A DNA stretch of 56,831 nucleotides from an archaeon. Its GTDB lineage: Archaea > Thermoproteota > Nitrososphaeria > Nitrososphaerales > Nitrosopumilaceae. Below are positions 14,134-20,734 of the stretch, in pieces (position 1 is the first letter of the stretch; every line of letters begins with the position of its first letter). A program made the translations under genes and the position numbers. The notes beneath the pieces were generated by a model. It was not told the DNA's origin. It saw only the letters and a program-made list of their open reading frames with translations, and did no database searches. The stretch is from positions 1 through 56,831 of the forward strand of contig JAJRWR010000041.1 in assembly GCA_024276695.1 (NCBI GenBank), in the 5' to 3' direction.

Positions 14134-14186
14134 TGAAATTTGCGATAAATCAGTCTTTTTTCTATTTTGTCAACAAATTTTTTCAC

Positions 14187-14198
14187 AACCTTAAATAG
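14187..14198 (+). promoter_or_regulatory. TATA-like box of first PEFG gene
   Basis: AACCTTAAATAG lies 23 bases before the ATG at 14221. The same TAAATAG ends 23 bases before the ATG of the next two PEFG genes, so this is probably the core-promoter position for the family. Confidence 0.5.
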
Positions 14199-14220
14199 TC
14201 CAAATCTGGGCGTAAAAATA

Positions 14221-15048
14221 ATGAAATCTCAACTAGCAGTGTTTGCCTTATCTGCAATTTTAATTGCAAGTATTGGTATGGCACCAGCATTTGGACAAAG
14301 TTCTGTTGTAATCGCTACAGACAAACCATCATATTCTGAGGGAGAGACAATCCTAGTTACAGGTGAAGTAGCTCAACTTCTGGGAGGTTATGGACTTACG
14401 ATTACAGTGAAATCAGACTTGGCTATTGTTTACATTGGTCAACTTACTGTGGGTGCAGATAAAAAATTTAGTACCACTATTGCAGCAGGGGGATCATTAA
14501 TGAAAAATGATGGCACGTATACAATTACTGTCCAATATGGAGACAACAAAAATAATGCAGCAAGTACAACATTTGAATTCGGAGGATCTACAGCTACACC
14601 ACCAACTGAGGTTTCTGAAATAACTGACACAACAGTTTCAGTTTCAGGTTCTAGTGATTTGATAGGATATGAAATTACAGGCGGAAAACTACTAAGTATT
14701 ATGCCTGACGTGGATGCAAATTCACTAATCGTATCTATTGATACTACAAACGATGGATTACTTACACTCACAATCCCTAGATCTGTGTTGGATGCAACAA
14801 TTAATGGTGAAGATGATGACTTTTTCATCTTAATTGATGGAGAAGAAGTAGACTTTGAGGAAACTATATCATCAACTGATAGAATACTCACCATAGCATT
14901 CCCAGCAGGTGCTGAAGAGATCGAAATAATCGGTACATTTGTAGTTCCAGAATTTGGTACAATCGCAGCAATGATTCTAGCAGTAGCAATTATCTCAATT
15001 ATTGCAATATCTGCAAAATCAAAACTTAGTATTATTCCAAGATACTAA
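14221..15048 (+). CDS. PEFG-CTERM cell-surface protein 1
   Basis: Start at 14221 (MKSQLAVFALSAILIASIGM, a signal peptide ending near PAFGQ); an upstream in-frame start at 14167 only adds non-signal residues. The mature part has an Ig-like segment (VVIATDKPSYSEGETILVTG) and a beta-rich domain with FFILIDGEEVDF. The C-terminus is VVPEFGTIAAMILAVAIISI plus basic KSKLSIIPRY: the PEFG motif, one membrane helix and a basic tail, i.e. the archaeosortase-type PEFG-CTERM signal described in Thaumarchaeota. Likely exported, cleaved and anchored. Divergent from rpoH. Confidence 0.88.
   Translation: MKSQLAVFALSAILIASIGMAPAFGQSSVVIATDKPSYSEGETILVTGEVAQLLGGYGLTITVKSDLAIVYIGQLTVGADKKFSTTIAAGGSLMKNDGTYTITVQYGDNKNNAASTTFEFGGSTATPPTEVSEITDTTVSVSGSSDLIGYEITGGKLLSIMPDVDANSLIVSIDTTNDGLLTLTIPRSVLDATINGEDDDFFILIDGEEVDFEETISSTDRILTIAFPAGAEEIEIIGTFVVPEFGTIAAMILAVAIISIIAISAKSKLSIIPRY
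14941..15048 (+). repeat. PEFG 3'-end direct repeat, copy 1
   Basis: 108 bases coding the PEFG-CTERM tail. They differ from copy 2 (15870-15977) at about three positions and are almost the same as copy 3 (19753-19860), although the upstream parts of the three genes differ strongly. Confidence 0.85.
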
Positions 15049-15065
15049 ATTTCATCTTTTTTTCT

Positions 15066-15087
15066 ATTTTTAAATATACATAAATAG
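15066..15087 (+). promoter_or_regulatory. TATA promoter of second PEFG gene
   Basis: A 22-base AT-rich block containing TTTTTAAATATACATAAATA is identical to 18937-18958 in front of the third PEFG gene. Both are exactly 45 bases from block start to the ATG. It follows a T-run (15057-15063) that may also terminate the preceding gene. Confidence 0.65.
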
Positions 15088-15110
15088 CAATAATGCTGGG
15101 TGAAATTAGC

Positions 15111-15977
15111 ATGAATTTTAAACGTTCTACAACATCAATGGCAATAGCCCTTATGGTATTGTCATTAGTTTCAATGACTTCAATTCAACAAGATGCTTTT
15201 GCTCAAAGTCTTGGAATGTCCATTACGGCAACAGCCGATAAAGGATCAGACACAATTACCCTCACAGGTAAAACAGTTTCAGACATTACAGATGTTACTT
15301 TTAGAGTAACGTCCCCAAGTGGAAATAACGTTGTCGCAATTGGACAAATATCACCCAATGATGACGGAGATTTTGTAAAAGAATTCAAAGTAGGACCAAC
15401 ATGGACTGAAGATGGATTTTATGAAATCCAGGCAATGCAAAGTATAGGATCAAATTCATTGTATACTTTGAAAGTACTTGTTGAAGTAGCAAATGGTATG
15501 ACTGAAAGAACTTCTGTAACTGAATCTAATTTAGAAACAGGAATTTTTACAGCACCTGACCTAAACAATGCTGCTGCAGATGCAGGACTTTTCCTTGATG
15601 CAATAATTATCGAGAATGGTTCTACAATGTTTGAAGTTACCGGAATAACTGATAGAGTAAGTCAAGATATTACATTAACAGTAACAGCACCAAATGGGAA
15701 TGTGGTAACAATTGATCAAATATCACCAATGCTTGATGGGAATTTCGCTGCTGAAATTACAGTGGGTGGATCATTATGGAAACAAGATGGTTTTTACACT
15801 GTAACTGTACAACAATTTGACGATCCAAAATATACTGCTTCATCTGAAGTAGATATCTTAGATGGAGTCGTAGTTCCAGAATTTGGTACAATCGCAGCAA
15901 TGATTCTAGCAGTAGCAATTATCTCAATTATTGCAATATCTGCAAAATCAAGGCTTAGCATTATTCCAAGATACTAA
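15111..15977 (+). CDS. PEFG-CTERM cell-surface protein 2
   Basis: Start at 15111 (MNFKRSTTSMAIALMVLSLV), preceded by GGGTGAA at Shine-Dalgarno distance and 45 bases from the promoter block shared with gene 3. Signal peptide ends near DAFAQS. Two Ig-like units follow: DTITLTGKTVSDITDVTFRV and DITLTVTAPNGNVVTIDQIS, the second closely similar to PEFG protein 3 (TVISPLNSIVTIDQLTVAED). PEFG-CTERM tail as in protein 1. Surface protein; ligand or partner unknown. Confidence 0.86.
   Translation: MNFKRSTTSMAIALMVLSLVSMTSIQQDAFAQSLGMSITATADKGSDTITLTGKTVSDITDVTFRVTSPSGNNVVAIGQISPNDDGDFVKEFKVGPTWTEDGFYEIQAMQSIGSNSLYTLKVLVEVANGMTERTSVTESNLETGIFTAPDLNNAAADAGLFLDAIIIENGSTMFEVTGITDRVSQDITLTVTAPNGNVVTIDQISPMLDGNFAAEITVGGSLWKQDGFYTVTVQQFDDPKYTASSEVDILDGVVVPEFGTIAAMILAVAIISIIAISAKSRLSIIPRY
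15870..15977 (+). repeat. PEFG 3'-end direct repeat, copy 2
   Basis: Second copy of the 108-base tail-coding repeat; see 14941-15048. Confidence 0.85.
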
Positions 15978-15996
15978 GTTCATACAACTTTTTTCT

Positions 15997-16004
15997 ATTT
16001 TTAA
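15997..16004. repeat. 8-bp target-site duplication, left
   Basis: ATTTTTAA directly precedes the element end GGCTCTGT and recurs as ATTTTTAA directly after the other end (18937-18944). Eight bases is the duplication length of IS6-family insertion. Confidence 0.8.
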
Positions 16005-16171
16005 GGCTCTGTAAAGTCAACAAGGCTTTGACTTGTAATTTTCTTTTGTCAAATTCGAGACCTAAATACAAACGATCAGTATCAATAAGAAAATACGAAA
16101 ATCATAAAAAGAACACAAATTATGATAAAATTGTGCCTTGATCTGCCAAAATATATCGATACAGAACAAGG

Positions 16172-16866
16172 TTGGGAATGGATGTTATCCAACCAAGATT
16201 ACAAAATATGGAAATTACCCGTACTGAGGACATTCACATTCATGAACCAAATGGAAATTCGATAAGTGGAGATATGGTTCTCGTAGAATTAAATGGTGAG
16301 AGACGTTTTTTTGGCTTCGTAATTGATTTAGATAACAGAATAATAATCCTTTATGGAACTTCCAAATTTAGATCGTTAGTTTTACGAAATATAGTATCGA
16401 CAATACAAGATAATCATAGAGATTGGGAAAATTTTATTGAAACTGAAGAAAATGGCTTTAGTATATCAAATGAACAAATTTTTACTCTAATAGATAGATT
16501 AAGAGCAGAACATGAGGATAACACTGTAGTTAAGTTACTCTTAACTTCGGATGAAGCACACCCATCATAATTCAACATGGAACACAAGAAGGTCAAGGTT
16601 TACCATACTATGAATTAGATTTTAGACTAGTCAATGATTCCGCAGAACAACACCCATTAAGAAAAACATTTGAACAATCAGCACGTTCTATCGGATTCAT
16701 TATTGAATTAAAACAATGTAGAGGATTAAGGAATGTTGAAGAAAGAACCCCTATTAAAGTACACATCAATCCAGACTTTTCATTCTGGTTACACAAAGAC
16801 TCAGCAATTAATGAATGGACTGATTTTATCTACGGGTTCTGCATGGATTTCATAAATGGACGATAA
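16172..16866 (+). pseudogene. Unknown IS passenger gene, one frameshift
   Basis: The first frame (from ATG 16172, or 16178) reads MEITRTEDIHIHEPNGNSI and ends at a TAA at 16568-16570. The next frame is open from there to TAA at 16864-16866 and continues with IIIQHGTQEGQGLPYYELDF and DFSFWLHKDSAINEWTDFIY. Both halves look like real protein and join near 16555, which indicates one indel. Restored product about 230 residues, soluble, no motif I recognise. It lies inside the IS6-like element. Confidence 0.6.
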
Positions 16867-16878
16867 GGAAACTTCATA

Positions 16879-17402
16879 ATGTTTGATGCGGTATATAGAA
16901 TGATGGCAGACATATTTTCATCAATTTCAACTCAATTTGCAGATTCGTATCTTTCTATTATCGTTAGTTCCGTAATTGGGGGTCTTATAGCATGTTATAT
17001 TTACAAAGTAAATGAAAATAAAAAACAAAAAAGTGATAAAATGAATTGGAATGCAATTAATGAATATTGTAAAAAAGCACAAAAAATCTATAATACAATA
17101 TACAGTTACTCGGACAAATCCCTGAAAACGAAGAAGATCAATTAAGAAAAATAAATTCATTTTTGGAAAGGGATTCGGAAAAATTGAGGCGAATCCACGA
17201 TACCATTTTTAATTATAGTTTACAACTTCATAAAAAAACAGAAAAAGACAAACGTAAGATAGAAGATATTTTATTGCATATTGATTGGTTGTCAAATGAT
17301 TATTTCAGAGCGTCTTTGGATAAGGAAGCACGTAAAACATACTTTGTAGATTATAGAGATGAATTATCATCCCGAAGAAAGGAAATCTCTGAATTAGCAT
17401 AA
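16879..17402 (+). pseudogene. Membrane-anchored coiled-coil protein, one frameshift
   Basis: The first frame begins MFDAVYRMMADIFSS and has one membrane helix (SYLSIIVSSVIGGLIACYIY) followed by charged helix; it stops at 17143-17145. The second frame overlaps from about 17100 and reads QLLGQIPENEEDQLRKINSF then SEKLRRIHDTIFNYSLQLHK to TAA at 17400-17402. Joined near 17100, the two make one ~170-residue protein with a membrane anchor and a cytoplasmic coiled coil. Function unknown; 12 bp after the preceding gene, probably cotranscribed. Confidence 0.6.
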
Positions 17403-17416
17403 TACCCAAAATAGTT

Positions 17417-17599
17417 TCAAGTATTATGACTATCTGCTTTGATTTCAACCGTATTTTTTCCTTTCAGGACAAATTTTACAAAATTTGGATCTCCTAACGC
17501 TTCCATGATAGGTTTAGGAATAGAACTTTGATATCCTCGATTTTCATTAAAATTAACACTAACAGTAAATTCTTTAGCATCTTTTTTCCACTTAGGCAA
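17417..17599 (-). CDS. SpoVT/AbrB-like DNA-binding protein
   Basis: 60 residues from a TTG start (an in-frame TGA lies two codons upstream). EFTVSVNFNENRGYQSSIPK followed by PIMEALG and FVKFVLKGKNTVEIKA has the beta-alpha-beta swapped-hairpin pattern of AbrB/MazE-type regulators (strand, IPKPIxEALG, strand). It is divergent from the transposase, and an array of TACGTA-centred palindromes lies between them, so it may repress both. An antitoxin role is possible but no toxin partner is visible. Confidence 0.65.
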   Translation of the reverse strand: MPKWKKDAKEFTVSVNFNENRGYQSSIPKPIMEALGDPNFVKFVLKGKNTVEIKADSHNT

Positions 17600-17614
17600 T
17601 AATCAAAATCGTCA

Positions 17615-17689
17615 TATCTACGTATTAAAGGTATCTACGTAGTTAAGTAAAGTTAATATATCTACGTAGATATTGTATATACGTAGATA
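17615..17689. promoter_or_regulatory. Operator-like TACGTA palindrome array
   Basis: Four sites in 75 bp: TATCTACGTA at 17615-17624 and 17632-17641, a perfect 16-bp palindrome ATATCTACGTAGATAT at 17658-17673, and TATACGTAGATA at 17678-17689, the last running into the transposase ATG. They occupy the whole spacer between the AbrB-like gene and the transposase. A dimeric or tetrameric repressor site is the simplest reading. Confidence 0.6.
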
Positions 17690-18810
17690 TGACTAACCGT
17701 GAAACAAAAGCACAAAAAATAATTGAAAAAAATAACCAAATTAAACAAATAGATAATCATACTTTCCAAGTAAAATCACAATCATCAGACAAATGGTATG
17801 ATGTTATATCTACTGAATCAGGATTCATTTGTTCCTGTCCTTACTCAACATTCAGAAAAACAAATTGTAAGCATTCAATCTCAGTTGAGATTAATCAAGG
17901 AATTAGAAAATACATTGAAGATGTAAAACAGAAACAAGTAATCATCAATCCAGTAGAGATTAACGGTTGCAAGTTCTGTGAATCTAATCACATCATAAAG
18001 AAAGGATTGAGAAAAAACAAAAATTATTCAATCCAAACTTTTCAATGCAAAGACTGTAAACGAAAGTTCTCAATCAATATTGGATTTGAGAAGATGAGAG
18101 TCACACCACAAGCAATTACAGCAAGTATGAATCTCTACTTTAACGGGGAATCATTACGCCATGTTGTCGATTTCATGAAACTCTTTGGCGTAGAAGTGAC
18201 ACACCAAACTATCCATAACTGGATCAAAAAATACATTGGATTAATGGAGACTTATCTTGAATCCATAACCCCTCAAGTTTCAGACAAATGGTACTGTGAT
18301 GAGATTTTCTTGAAAATCAAAGGAGATAGAAAATATCTCTATGCCATGCTTGATGATTCCTCAAGATTTTGGATTGCCTCACAAGTGGCAAAAACAAAGT
18401 ATACCGAAGATGTAAGACCATTATTCAAAAACAGTCAAGTCAGAGCAGGTAAGAAACCCAAAGTCTTACTTTCAGATGGGGCTAAGAATTTCATGCAAGC
18501 CCATAAGAAAGAATGGTATTCAAATTACAAAAAAGACAAGGTAGAACATATCAGACATATTCACTTCAAAGGTGACAAAAATACGAACAAAATGGAACGT
18601 CTCAACAATGAGATAAGAGACCGTGAGAAAGTAATGCGTTCTCTAAAAACCGATGATTCGCCTATTCTTACAGGTATGCAGATTTTCCACAATTATGTTA
18701 GACCTCACATGGGTATTGATGGAATGACTCCAAGTGAGAAAGCAGGAATCAAAATTGAGGGATTAAACAAATGGATTACAATTATTCAAAATGCGAAATT
18801 AAACCAATAA
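17689..18810 (+). CDS. IS6-family-like DDE transposase
   Basis: 373 residues. N-terminal SWIM zinc finger (C48, C50, C60, H62 in CSCPYSTFRKTNCKH), then a zinc ribbon (C94, C97, C120, C123), then a DDE core: D204 in WYCDEIFLKIKG, D263 in VLLSDGAKNF and E303 in NKMERLNNEIRDREK. The motif spacing and the HNYVRPHMGIDGMTPSEKAG tail fit the IS6 superfamily. The gene looks complete. Its ATG overlaps the last operator-like site. The terminal repeats and 8-bp duplication fit IS6-type transposition. Confidence 0.85.
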   Translation: MTNRETKAQKIIEKNNQIKQIDNHTFQVKSQSSDKWYDVISTESGFICSCPYSTFRKTNCKHSISVEINQGIRKYIEDVKQKQVIINPVEINGCKFCESNHIIKKGLRKNKNYSIQTFQCKDCKRKFSINIGFEKMRVTPQAITASMNLYFNGESLRHVVDFMKLFGVEVTHQTIHNWIKKYIGLMETYLESITPQVSDKWYCDEIFLKIKGDRKYLYAMLDDSSRFWIASQVAKTKYTEDVRPLFKNSQVRAGKKPKVLLSDGAKNFMQAHKKEWYSNYKKDKVEHIRHIHFKGDKNTNKMERLNNEIRDREKVMRSLKTDDSPILTGMQIFHNYVRPHMGIDGMTPSEKAGIKIEGLNKWITIIQNAKLNQ

Positions 18811-18906
18811 TTTTTTTGTTATACAATCAGGACATAGAATTACTCCTTGTTCGTTATCTGTAAGTTGTAACATGGTATCTGTATATTCATCGATCTCATT
18901 TTTCAC
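18799..18906 (-). CDS. 35-residue CPDC mini-protein in the IS
   Basis: GTG start; reads MKNEIDEYTDTMLQL and ends with VILCPDCITKKLLV. The CPDC pair could bind a metal with a partner. It is convergent with the transposase and overlaps its 3' end by 12 bases. It fills the right arm of the element. May be a remnant of a longer zinc-ribbon protein. Confidence 0.35.
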   Translation of the reverse strand: MKNEIDEYTDTMLQLTDNEQGVILCPDCITKKLLV

Positions 18907-18936
18907 ATAATTTACCCAAGCTAACTTGACAGAACC

Positions 18937-18944
18937 ATTTTTAA
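18937..18944. repeat. 8-bp target-site duplication, right
   Basis: ATTTTTAA, matching 15997-16004; it also forms the upstream half of the TATA box of the next gene. Confidence 0.8.
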
Positions 18945-18958
18945 ATATACATAAATAG
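18937..18958 (+). promoter_or_regulatory. TATA promoter of third PEFG gene
   Basis: Identical 22 bases to 15066-15087, with the same 45-base distance to the ATG. The first eight bases are the IS target duplication, so the insertion rebuilt the TATA box but replaced everything upstream of it. Confidence 0.65.
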
Positions 18959-18981
18959 AGACAAATGCAAATCGCAACAAG

Positions 18982-19860
18982 ATGAACAATCGTACGTCGT
19001 TCGCGCTACTAGCCTTATTGACTGCAGTCGGAACTCTAACTATGTCATCAGCATATGCTGCACAGAATCCAGCATATATTGAATCCATGGAAGATGCAAG
19101 AGCAATGGCATCACAAGAACTCATGGATACAATTCCTGTATCTGTTTGGACAGACAAAACAGATTATGGTCATAATGATATAATTATGATAGAAGGTCAA
19201 GTAGCAAATACATCTGGATTTCCAGTTACAATTACTGTGATTAGTCCTCTAAACTCTATTGTTACAATTGATCAACTCACCGTAGCAGAAGATGGTAGTT
19301 TTGAGACAACCCTAAACACAGCAGGTGCAATGTGGAAATACGACGGTACCTACACCATTAAAGCAAACTATGGCAGTGCTGAAAAAAGTAACAGTGTCAA
19401 AGTTGAATTAACTGGTGGAGTTGCATTTACACCAAACTACAATACACCAACAGTACCAGACAAACAGTGTGGTGCTAATGAATTGTCTACAAGTGGTCAA
19501 TGTGTGCCATTTAGCATTTCAGGTGGAAAGGTAACAAGTGCAATGCTCAATACTAATGACAATTCAATTGTCATTATGATCAACGCCGAAGATGATGGAA
19601 CATTGATAGTATCCCCATCAACAACAGTCCAAGACGGTATCTTCATGGTACTAGTTGACGGAGAAGAATGGGATGATGTTGAAATTGTTGCAAACAAAGT
19701 AACAATCATGTTCCCAGCAGGTGCTGAAACAATTGAAATAATTGGTACCTATGTGATTCCAGAATTTGGTACAATCGCATCAATGATTCTAGCAGTAGCA
19801 ATTATCTCAATTATTGCAATATCTGCAAAATCAAGACTAAGTATTATACCAAGATACTAA
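18982..19860 (+). CDS. PEFG-CTERM cell-surface protein 3
   Basis: Signal peptide MNNRTSFALLALLTAVGTLT ending near AYAAQ. An Ig-like domain (VWTDKTDYGHNDIIMIEGQV) is followed by NSIVTIDQLTVAEDGSF, a short Cys-containing linker (CGANELSTSGQC) and a second beta domain with MVLVDGEEWDDVEI like protein 1. Ends with VIPEFGTIASMILAVAIISI and RLSIIPRY. Expression may be altered because the sequence upstream of its TATA box now belongs to the IS6-like element. Confidence 0.87.
   Translation: MNNRTSFALLALLTAVGTLTMSSAYAAQNPAYIESMEDARAMASQELMDTIPVSVWTDKTDYGHNDIIMIEGQVANTSGFPVTITVISPLNSIVTIDQLTVAEDGSFETTLNTAGAMWKYDGTYTIKANYGSAEKSNSVKVELTGGVAFTPNYNTPTVPDKQCGANELSTSGQCVPFSISGGKVTSAMLNTNDNSIVIMINAEDDGTLIVSPSTTVQDGIFMVLVDGEEWDDVEIVANKVTIMFPAGAETIEIIGTYVIPEFGTIASMILAVAIISIIAISAKSRLSIIPRY
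19753..19860 (+). repeat. PEFG 3'-end direct repeat, copy 3
   Basis: Third copy of the 108-base tail-coding repeat, a few substitutions away from copies 1 and 2. Confidence 0.8.
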
Positions 19861-19872
19861 AAGTTACACAAC

Positions 19873-19894
19873 TTTTTTCATTTTTTCATTTTTT
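19873..19894 (+). terminator. T-run terminator after PEFG gene 3
   Basis: Three successive T-runs separated by CA, starting 13 bases after the stop codon. Oligo-T stretches of this kind are the usual archaeal intrinsic termination signal. Confidence 0.5.
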
Positions 19895-19924
19895 AATAGT
19901 AAAGGAAATATACAAACAAGTATT

Positions 19925-20734
19925 TTGAAATTTGTGGATTTAAGAATATTTTATGGATTCATAATAGTGTTAACAATTTCTACAGGAACAGCATTTGCAC
20001 AAGAATCATTAATTTCAATTCAAACAGATGATAATCATTATGATGAAGGAGACGCAATTGTAATTTCGGGAAATGTGAATATAGTAATAGGTGAAACACC
20101 ATTAATATTACAATTATTTAATGAAGGGAATTTGGTAGATATTGCACAAATCACAGTAGCGCAAGATGGTAGTTTCACAAAAACATTCCTGGCAGAAGGA
20201 GCATTATGGAAAAAATCTGGAGAATATATAATCATAGCATCATACCAAGAACACCAAATTGAAACTGGGTTTTCATATACTCCAAAATCAGAGGCAACTG
20301 TAACAACAGAGCCTTATGAAGTAGATGCAGGAAGTCACGGAACATTTGATGTAGAGTATACCATCCAAGGTGGTACTGTAAAAAACATGATTGTAGATTC
20401 TGACATTTTTGCAGTGATAGTTCAAATTGATGCAATAGATGAAGGAACAATAACACTAGATTTACCTAGAGAATTCATAGGTGCAGAAAAACAAGATGGT
20501 AAAGATGACACGTTTATCATATTAATTGATGGGATAGAAGTAGCATATCAAGAATCAGTAGTGCTTGCAGATTCTAGAGTAATAACGATTAATTTTGAGC
20601 AAGGGGACTCAGATATTGAGATTATTGGAACTTATGTTGTTCCTGAGTTTGGAACAATTGTGATGATGATTTTTATTGTTGGAATTATGACGACGATTTT
20701 AGTTGCTAAAAATAAATTTCAAATTAGCATTTAG
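19925..20734 (+). CDS. PEFG-CTERM cell-surface protein 4
   Basis: TTG start, signal peptide (IFYGFIIVLTISTGTAFAQ), Ig-like segment (SIQTDDNHYDEGDAIVISGN), a second domain with FIILIDGIEVAYQESVVLAD as in proteins 1 and 3, and the tail VVPEFGTIVMMIFIVGIMTT with KNKFQISI. The DNA coding the tail is not a copy of the 108-base repeat, so this is an older paralogue. It ends 4 bases into the convergent cysteine desulfurase gene. Confidence 0.85.
   Translation: MKFVDLRIFYGFIIVLTISTGTAFAQESLISIQTDDNHYDEGDAIVISGNVNIVIGETPLILQLFNEGNLVDIAQITVAQDGSFTKTFLAEGALWKKSGEYIIIASYQEHQIETGFSYTPKSEATVTTEPYEVDAGSHGTFDVEYTIQGGTVKNMIVDSDIFAVIVQIDAIDEGTITLDLPREFIGAEKQDGKDDTFIILIDGIEVAYQESVVLADSRVITINFEQGDSDIEIIGTYVVPEFGTIVMMIFIVGIMTTILVAKNKFQISI

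Follow-up and report, generated by a model that had tools for sequence, protein, structure and literature searches.

The element in the window

The window, the 56,831-nucleotide stretch of Nitrosopumilaceae DNA that was analysed here, contains a 2,932-bp unit that carries a transposase, a divergently oriented regulator, two cargo genes, and a short remnant of a conserved protein (Table 1). The tips of the unit are identical at 13 of 17 positions (left GGCTCTGTAAAGTCAAC from 16005; right GGTTCTGTCAAGTTAGC, given as the reverse complement and ending at 18936), and an exact 8-bp target duplication (TSD) flanks it. An earlier note on this DNA had pointed out these ends and the duplication, and had read the unit as an IS6-like element with cargo and a regulator; the ends, the TSD, and a Pfam match of the transposase to DDE_Tnp_IS240 (PF13610, 3.1e-10) bear this out. 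Short, related TIRs that start with GG and contain cTGT are a feature of IS6 and are present in the unit (GGCTCTGT and GGTTCTGT); the 8-bp duplication, a further feature of IS6, is present in the unit and in its relatives. At 2,932 bp, the unit falls outside the IS6 pattern of 0.7-0.9 kb with a transposase alone.

Table 1. Features of the element and of its target in the window.
Feature	Position	Strand	Evidence or remark
Paralogous target promoter, unoccupied	15066..15087	+	100% identical to the right flank over 22 nt; in L039 a relative sits at the orthologous place
Left TSD, ATTTTTAA	15997..16004	.	Exact match to the right copy
Whole element, 2,932 bp	16005..18936	+	TIR 13/17, 8-bp TSD, transposase; displaced-TSD control
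Left end of the full 60-bp type, with GGnnCTGTAAAGT outermost and ...TCGAGACCTA subterminal	16005..16064	+	
Cargo gene 1, no family assigned	16178..16866	+	Frameshift near 16561-16570
Cargo gene 2, probable membrane/coiled-coil protein	16879..17402	+	Frameshift near 17103-17145
AbrB/MazE-like DNA-binding regulator (predicted), divergent from the transposase	17417..17599	-	Alignment of 21 homologues; fold search
Probable operator of palindromic ATCTACGTAGAT-type repeats, between the genes for regulator and transposase	17611..17693	.	
IS6-type DDE transposase, 373 aa	17689..18810	+	SWIM-type finger, zinc ribbon, HTH-like helices, DDE core D204, D263, E303
35-aa remnant of a conserved CxxC protein of about 70 aa, cut by the right end	18799..18906	-	
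Right end, outer 14 bp GGTTCTGTCAAGTT only; subterminal motif lost	18923..18936	-	
Right TSD, ATTTTTAA	18937..18944	.	Exact match to the left copy
BRE position, 6 nt, ATATAC	18945..18950	+	
Predicted TATA box, ATAAATA, for the target gene; distance to the element 14 nt	18951..18957	+	
Target gene, surface-type protein	18982..19860	+	Distance from the element to the predicted start codon: 45 nt

The two ends of the element agree at 21 of 60 positions, versus 53 to 60 of 60 in its closest relatives. The form of its left end is also that of both ends of the elements in L038 and L039 and of one end of L031. The reading frame that the earlier note took for a mini-protein is the C-terminal half of the CxxC protein; the N-terminal half of this protein is intact in L020, L003, L119, L095, and L168. 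A deletion inside the element, at its right end, accounts for both the short right end and the halved protein.

The two cargo genes that the earlier note had called unknown are present; each looks like a single gene interrupted by a frameshift, which may be an assembly error. In cargo gene 1 the frame at 16178-16570 runs on in another frame to 16866; in cargo gene 2 the frame at 16879-17145 runs on to 17402. A comparison with Pfam returned nothing above the cut-off for the window cargo proteins, and the homologues found for cargo gene 1 were a 29-aa remnant match in G075 and a weak match in G091. Judged from its sequence, the window copy looks decayed and immobile.

The search for the 2.9-kb unit elsewhere, proposed in the earlier note, found no second copy among the relatives; only pieces recur. 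The only closely recurring stretch is the left 250 bp, which is found at 93% identity, and without a transposase, in G075. Isolated ends of the same type, also without a transposase, are located in L012 (1501-1751) and L031 (1501-1552); these are relics or, possibly, short non-autonomous copies.

The transposase and the regulator

The earlier note had described a DDE transposase with a SWIM zinc finger. The DDE assignment stands: PF13610 is the best-scoring Pfam family, the match to Transposase_mut (Mutator) being below the cut-off at 0.002, and across 33 relatives D204 and E303 are invariant and D263 is at least 90% conserved. The finger is less clear-cut. The SWIM match in Pfam is weak and below the cut-off (E 0.007), but the cysteines and histidine of the SWIM-type motif CxC...CKH at residues 48-62 are at least 90% conserved in the same number of relatives. 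A zinc ribbon follows, with CxxC at 97 and at 120-123. The AlphaFold model of the transposase (pLDDT 84) has an RNase H-type fold and matches DDE transposases and retroviral integrases; its nearest PDB fold is ISCth4 (3.5e-06), which we take to be an IS256/Mutator-type enzyme. More copies of the transposase, full or broken, are found in the same genome (G000) at C8, C14, C18, and C29.

The regulator is 60 aa long and has homologues at the equivalent position in many relatives. Its assignment to AbrB in the earlier note received nothing above the cut-off from Pfam and nothing significant from a PDB sequence search. The fold search with its AlphaFold model (pLDDT 87) placed MazE, VapB, SpoVT, and AbrB among the best matches, with weak E-values of 0.7-6; the model makes an AbrB/MazE-like protein likely, not proven. 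The palindromes between regulator and transposase, which together with the regulator are 87% conserved in G094, form a probable operator. In other relatives the same slot is taken by a ribbon-helix-helix-like or zinc-ribbon protein, as assigned by eye from the sequence.

A family of cargo-carrying elements

We searched for related transposases and used an end-finder that accepted a locus only if TIRs and an exact 8-bp TSD enclosed the transposase. Fifty distinct elements were recovered in this way, and then 17 more; the resulting 67 comprise the window element and 66 Nitrosopumilaceae relatives, with lengths of 1.9-6.8 kb (median 3,260 bp). When the TSD was displaced by 1-9 bases, duplications were found in 0, 0, 0, 0, 1, and 0 cases (1 of 396), against 48 of 66 loci at the true position. 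Transposase matches occurred in 111 of 250 genomes of the family and, over a sample of the phylum, in 77 of 398 genomes and 43 of 163 genera. In many genomes, ends of the same type accompany homologous transposases, a point that the earlier note had proposed to check. The transposases are mostly 308-403 aa long. The tips read GRnnCTGT in most relatives, and one subclade begins with ACTTC (ACTTCTG).

Cargo, defined as at least one further open reading frame of at least 85 aa, was present in 65 of the 67 elements. A tIS is characterized by passenger genes that lie between the IS ends and travel with them as a unit, and in these 65 elements the sequences place the cargo within the TIRs and the TSD, as would be expected of such a unit. 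The core of regulator, operator, and transposase and the type of end are common to the relatives, whereas the cargo is exchanged and differs between elements. The cargo families comprise HNH endonucleases, N6/N4 DNA methylases, a type I specificity subunit, GmrSD, Fic, AbiV-type HEPN, AAA/AbiEii-like, RelA/SpoT, NurA, and proteasome-like proteins, and response regulators. PADLOC matches among the cargo were mostly to methylases and mad2. The family is large and apparently undescribed, and its cargo is often defence-like. Individual cargo items include a proteasome-type protein (L085, 4821-5744), whose family was matched by 4 of 127 cargo proteins, and a tRNA-Ile gene with anticodon TAT (L039, 6909-6993), which lies as apparent cargo inside a 2,558-bp element.

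Members of the IS6 family are 789-880 bp long with transposases of 213-254 aa, and ISDsp3 is the sole listed member with a passenger gene (PMC7986276). The archaeal entries measure 696-853 bp and 211-237 aa, and Harmer and Hall argue for a separate family (PMC6807381). We took the limits of the IS6 family from these two sources. The earlier note's remark that cargo is uncommon in IS6 holds for the published lists; it does not hold in this clade.

The elements might be seen as ordinary IS6 copies that captured flanking genes, the window element being an isolated case with cargo. The PF13610 domain, the GGnnCTGT ends, and the 8-bp TSD agree with this reading. However, no cargo-free unit of IS6 size, such as a short transposase-only unit moving by itself, was found in the clade, cargo is the rule, and the sizes lie beyond the published limits; we consider the reading unlikely. 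With 373 aa, a SWIM-type finger, and a zinc ribbon, the window transposase likewise goes beyond what is given for IS6, about 211-254 aa and no domains besides H-HTH and DDE. Because the published limits on size and transposase are exceeded, we call the family IS6-like, not IS6 proper.

Insertion sites upstream of predicted promoters

Comparison of the flanks revealed a layout that had no part in the earlier note's reading. On one side of the element, the 8-nt TSD is followed by 6 nt (BRE) and a TATA box, and this promoter reads outward from the element. The TATA boxes at these sites, like the starts downstream of them, are predictions from sequence. We trained a TATA matrix solely on surface-gene and radA-type sites and ranked 95 offsets. 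For 22 held-out sites, in part of whose flanks the offset had first been spotted by eye, offset 14 ranked top (z 4.6; 0 of 20,000 random shifts). It also ranked top in two sets fetched later: 16 elements obtained after the hypothesis, including the clade with ACTTCTG tips (z 4.4; 0 of 200,000), and 15 elements from outside the Nitrosopumilaceae (z 4.1; 0 of 100,000). In all three sets the peak was essentially one base wide.

The 43 non-redundant sites have strong signals for AA at offsets 9-10 and for TTAWA at 14-19. Offsets 9-10 are where the archaeal BRE lies. A start codon was located 40-52 nt from the element in 27 of 53 TATA-side flanks; among low-scoring flanks the count was 6 of 53, and among random positions the share was 3%. 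The distance, often 42-50 nt, is what leaderless transcripts of archaea would be expected to show. The TATA box lies to the right of the element in 30 cases and to the left in 20. A sizeable minority of sites has no clear TATA box or nearby start codon. IS1595 loci, which also have an 8-bp TSD, were intended as a control; no ends were found in 30 short loci, and the result bears neither way. The element at C29 (L117, 2,835 bp) follows the same offset, with a start codon at 42 nt.

Insertion could be random, with only the copies upstream of core promoters persisting, and insertions in promoters or genes would indeed often do harm. Selection predicts a broad tolerated zone, however, whereas a single offset is seen across lineages whose transposases share 30-80% identity. 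Because the peak is so narrow in each set, we reject survivorship, which we regard as very improbable. The SWIM finger does not set the target either, since the elements in L133, L134, and L136 lack the finger yet sit at offset 14.

The promoter would be read by the transposase either as DNA or through bound TBP/TFB. The latter, comparable to the yeast Ty3 integrase with TFIIIB, is a variant within the best explanation and, in our estimation, a strong possibility that stops short of being probable. In its favor, the distance to the TATA box is fixed to a single base while the TSD varies (GGGGAAGG, CCCAAGCG, GTGCCTAG), a BRE-like AA lies upstream of the TATA box, and strong expression would be expected of several of the genes concerned. 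The TSD would also lie at the upstream edge of a TBP-TFB complex. A direct reader of DNA would, however, yield an identical pattern. Direct reading of the TATA/BRE DNA, by its sequence or bendability, would suit the AT-rich surface-gene promoter, which is struck repeatedly (in the window, L039, L040, L041, L076, L077, and L128); but TATA-like 6-mers should far outnumber promoters in AT-rich genomes, and about half of the TATA-side flanks still have a gene start at 40-52 nt. We hold direct reading to be possible, if rather doubtful.

Target genes, empty sites, and arrays

Two targets were hit repeatedly: the radA promoter (L094, L103, L107, L108, L110, L111, L121, and others) and a surface-protein array (the window, L039, L040, L041, L075, L077, and L128). 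By our reading of the sequences, further targets would include the genes for ribosomal P1, EF-1alpha, alanyl-tRNA synthetase, threonine synthase, and an SSB-type protein. In the window, the surface-type genes are tandem paralogues (14167-20734) with near-identical promoters (ATTTTTAAATATACATAAATA) and a common C-terminal PEFGTIAAMILAVAIISII anchor.

Besides the empty paralogous promoter upstream of the element (Table 1), an empty orthologous site is available: the spacer between genes B and C is empty in L039, from another Nitrosopumilus. The insertions in the two genomes are independent. The window element lies between genes B and C and that of L039 between A and B, so that each locus is the empty version of the other.

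Elements often abut, and a single copy of their shared TSD then separates them; at L111 (4642-13940), three tandem elements lie at the radA promoter, all with the duplication TGTTTCGA. If recognition goes via a TATA box that is outside the TSD, an insertion would leave the site intact, and arrays with a common TSD would result. Elements with unlike ends and matching TSDs are also seen. The association between poor TIR matching and array membership was a trend only and not significant (p=0.065).

Comparison with described elements and a model

The archaeal IS6/IS26 branch (PMC7986276 and PMC6807381) resembles the window family in its DDE_Tnp_IS240-type core, GGnnCTGT tips, and 8-bp TSD; unlike what is described there, the window family has elements of 1.9-6.8 kb with cargo and a divergent regulator, and a longer transposase, mostly of 361-403 aa, that includes a SWIM-type finger and a zinc ribbon. 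The long clostridial IS6-like elements of clades VII/VIII likewise have an N-terminal zinc-finger extension of about 90 aa on an IS6-like DDE core, but they are bacterial, about 1.2-1.3 kb long, and cargo-free, and promoter targeting is not reported in the accessible part of their description (PMC6807381).

TnGBS, ISLre2, and ISKra4 insert ahead of sigmaA promoters in bacteria, 15-17 bp before the -35 box (PMC3942029). With the window family they share a DDE transposase, a fixed short distance to the promoter (here offset 14 to a predicted TATA box of archaeal promoters), and, in some cases, cargo (PMC3942029). They differ in that the TnGBS-type transposase belongs to the Mutator superfamily and acts at sigmaA promoters, whereas the window family combines an IS6-like transposase with archaeal BRE/TATA promoters. 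Ty3, as cited in PMC3942029, is likewise guided to promoters via initiation factors and spares the gene; it is, however, a retroelement at Pol III genes in yeast. A survey of IS in Thaumarchaeota, the same hosts as those of the window family, lists 244 IS in 13 families, mentions IS6, and finds typically 1-2 genes per IS; the word "promoter" is absent from its text (PMC6563490). Our literature search, with limited coverage of subscription papers, turned up no description of a promoter-proximal target for IS6-like or archaeal elements. The window family works like TnGBS in its choice of target and is IS6-like in its enzyme and ends.

From the sequence comparisons, we consider it highly probable that the window element is a decayed member of a large, phylum-wide family of cargo-carrying IS6-like transposons that insert upstream of promoters. 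The transposase would move the whole unit, and the small divergent regulator would probably repress the transposase via the palindromes between both genes. Insertion would duplicate 8 bp at a constant distance ahead of a host promoter and keep the core promoter of the gene. The site beside the TATA box would be regenerated, so that further elements could land there and form tandem arrays; recombination within the arrays may exchange cargo and give unlike ends with matching TSDs, and defence-like cargo may pay for carriage. More tentatively, we propose that the transposase docks on the TBP/TFB-bound promoter and inserts at the upstream edge of the BRE, as a counterpart of Ty3/TFIIIB, and that the arrays with a shared TSD are islands that exchange defence-type genes.

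Offset 14 would amount to a single-base landing rule for widespread archaeal transposons, 14 nt upstream of the TATA box at the edge of the BRE. If true, this would be an archaeal case of promoter-guided integration, and a link between the initiation complex and integration becomes testable. The archaeal initiation complex is close kin of the eukaryotic one. The rule would explain how restriction, abortive-infection, and toxin-antitoxin-like cargo sits at radA, EF-1alpha, and ribosomal-protein genes with the core promoters kept, and it suggests a possible tool for site-specific insertion in archaea that are hard to engineer.

A palindrome at the radA promoter

In many genomes, the stretch from the TATA box to the radA start codon contains a palindrome, TACCGTAnnnTACGGTA; it lies at 3605-3650 in L107, with equivalents in L094, L103, L110, L111, and L121. 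We rejected it as a part of the elements, as it belongs to the radA promoter region; it is possibly a conserved operator of this recombinase gene.
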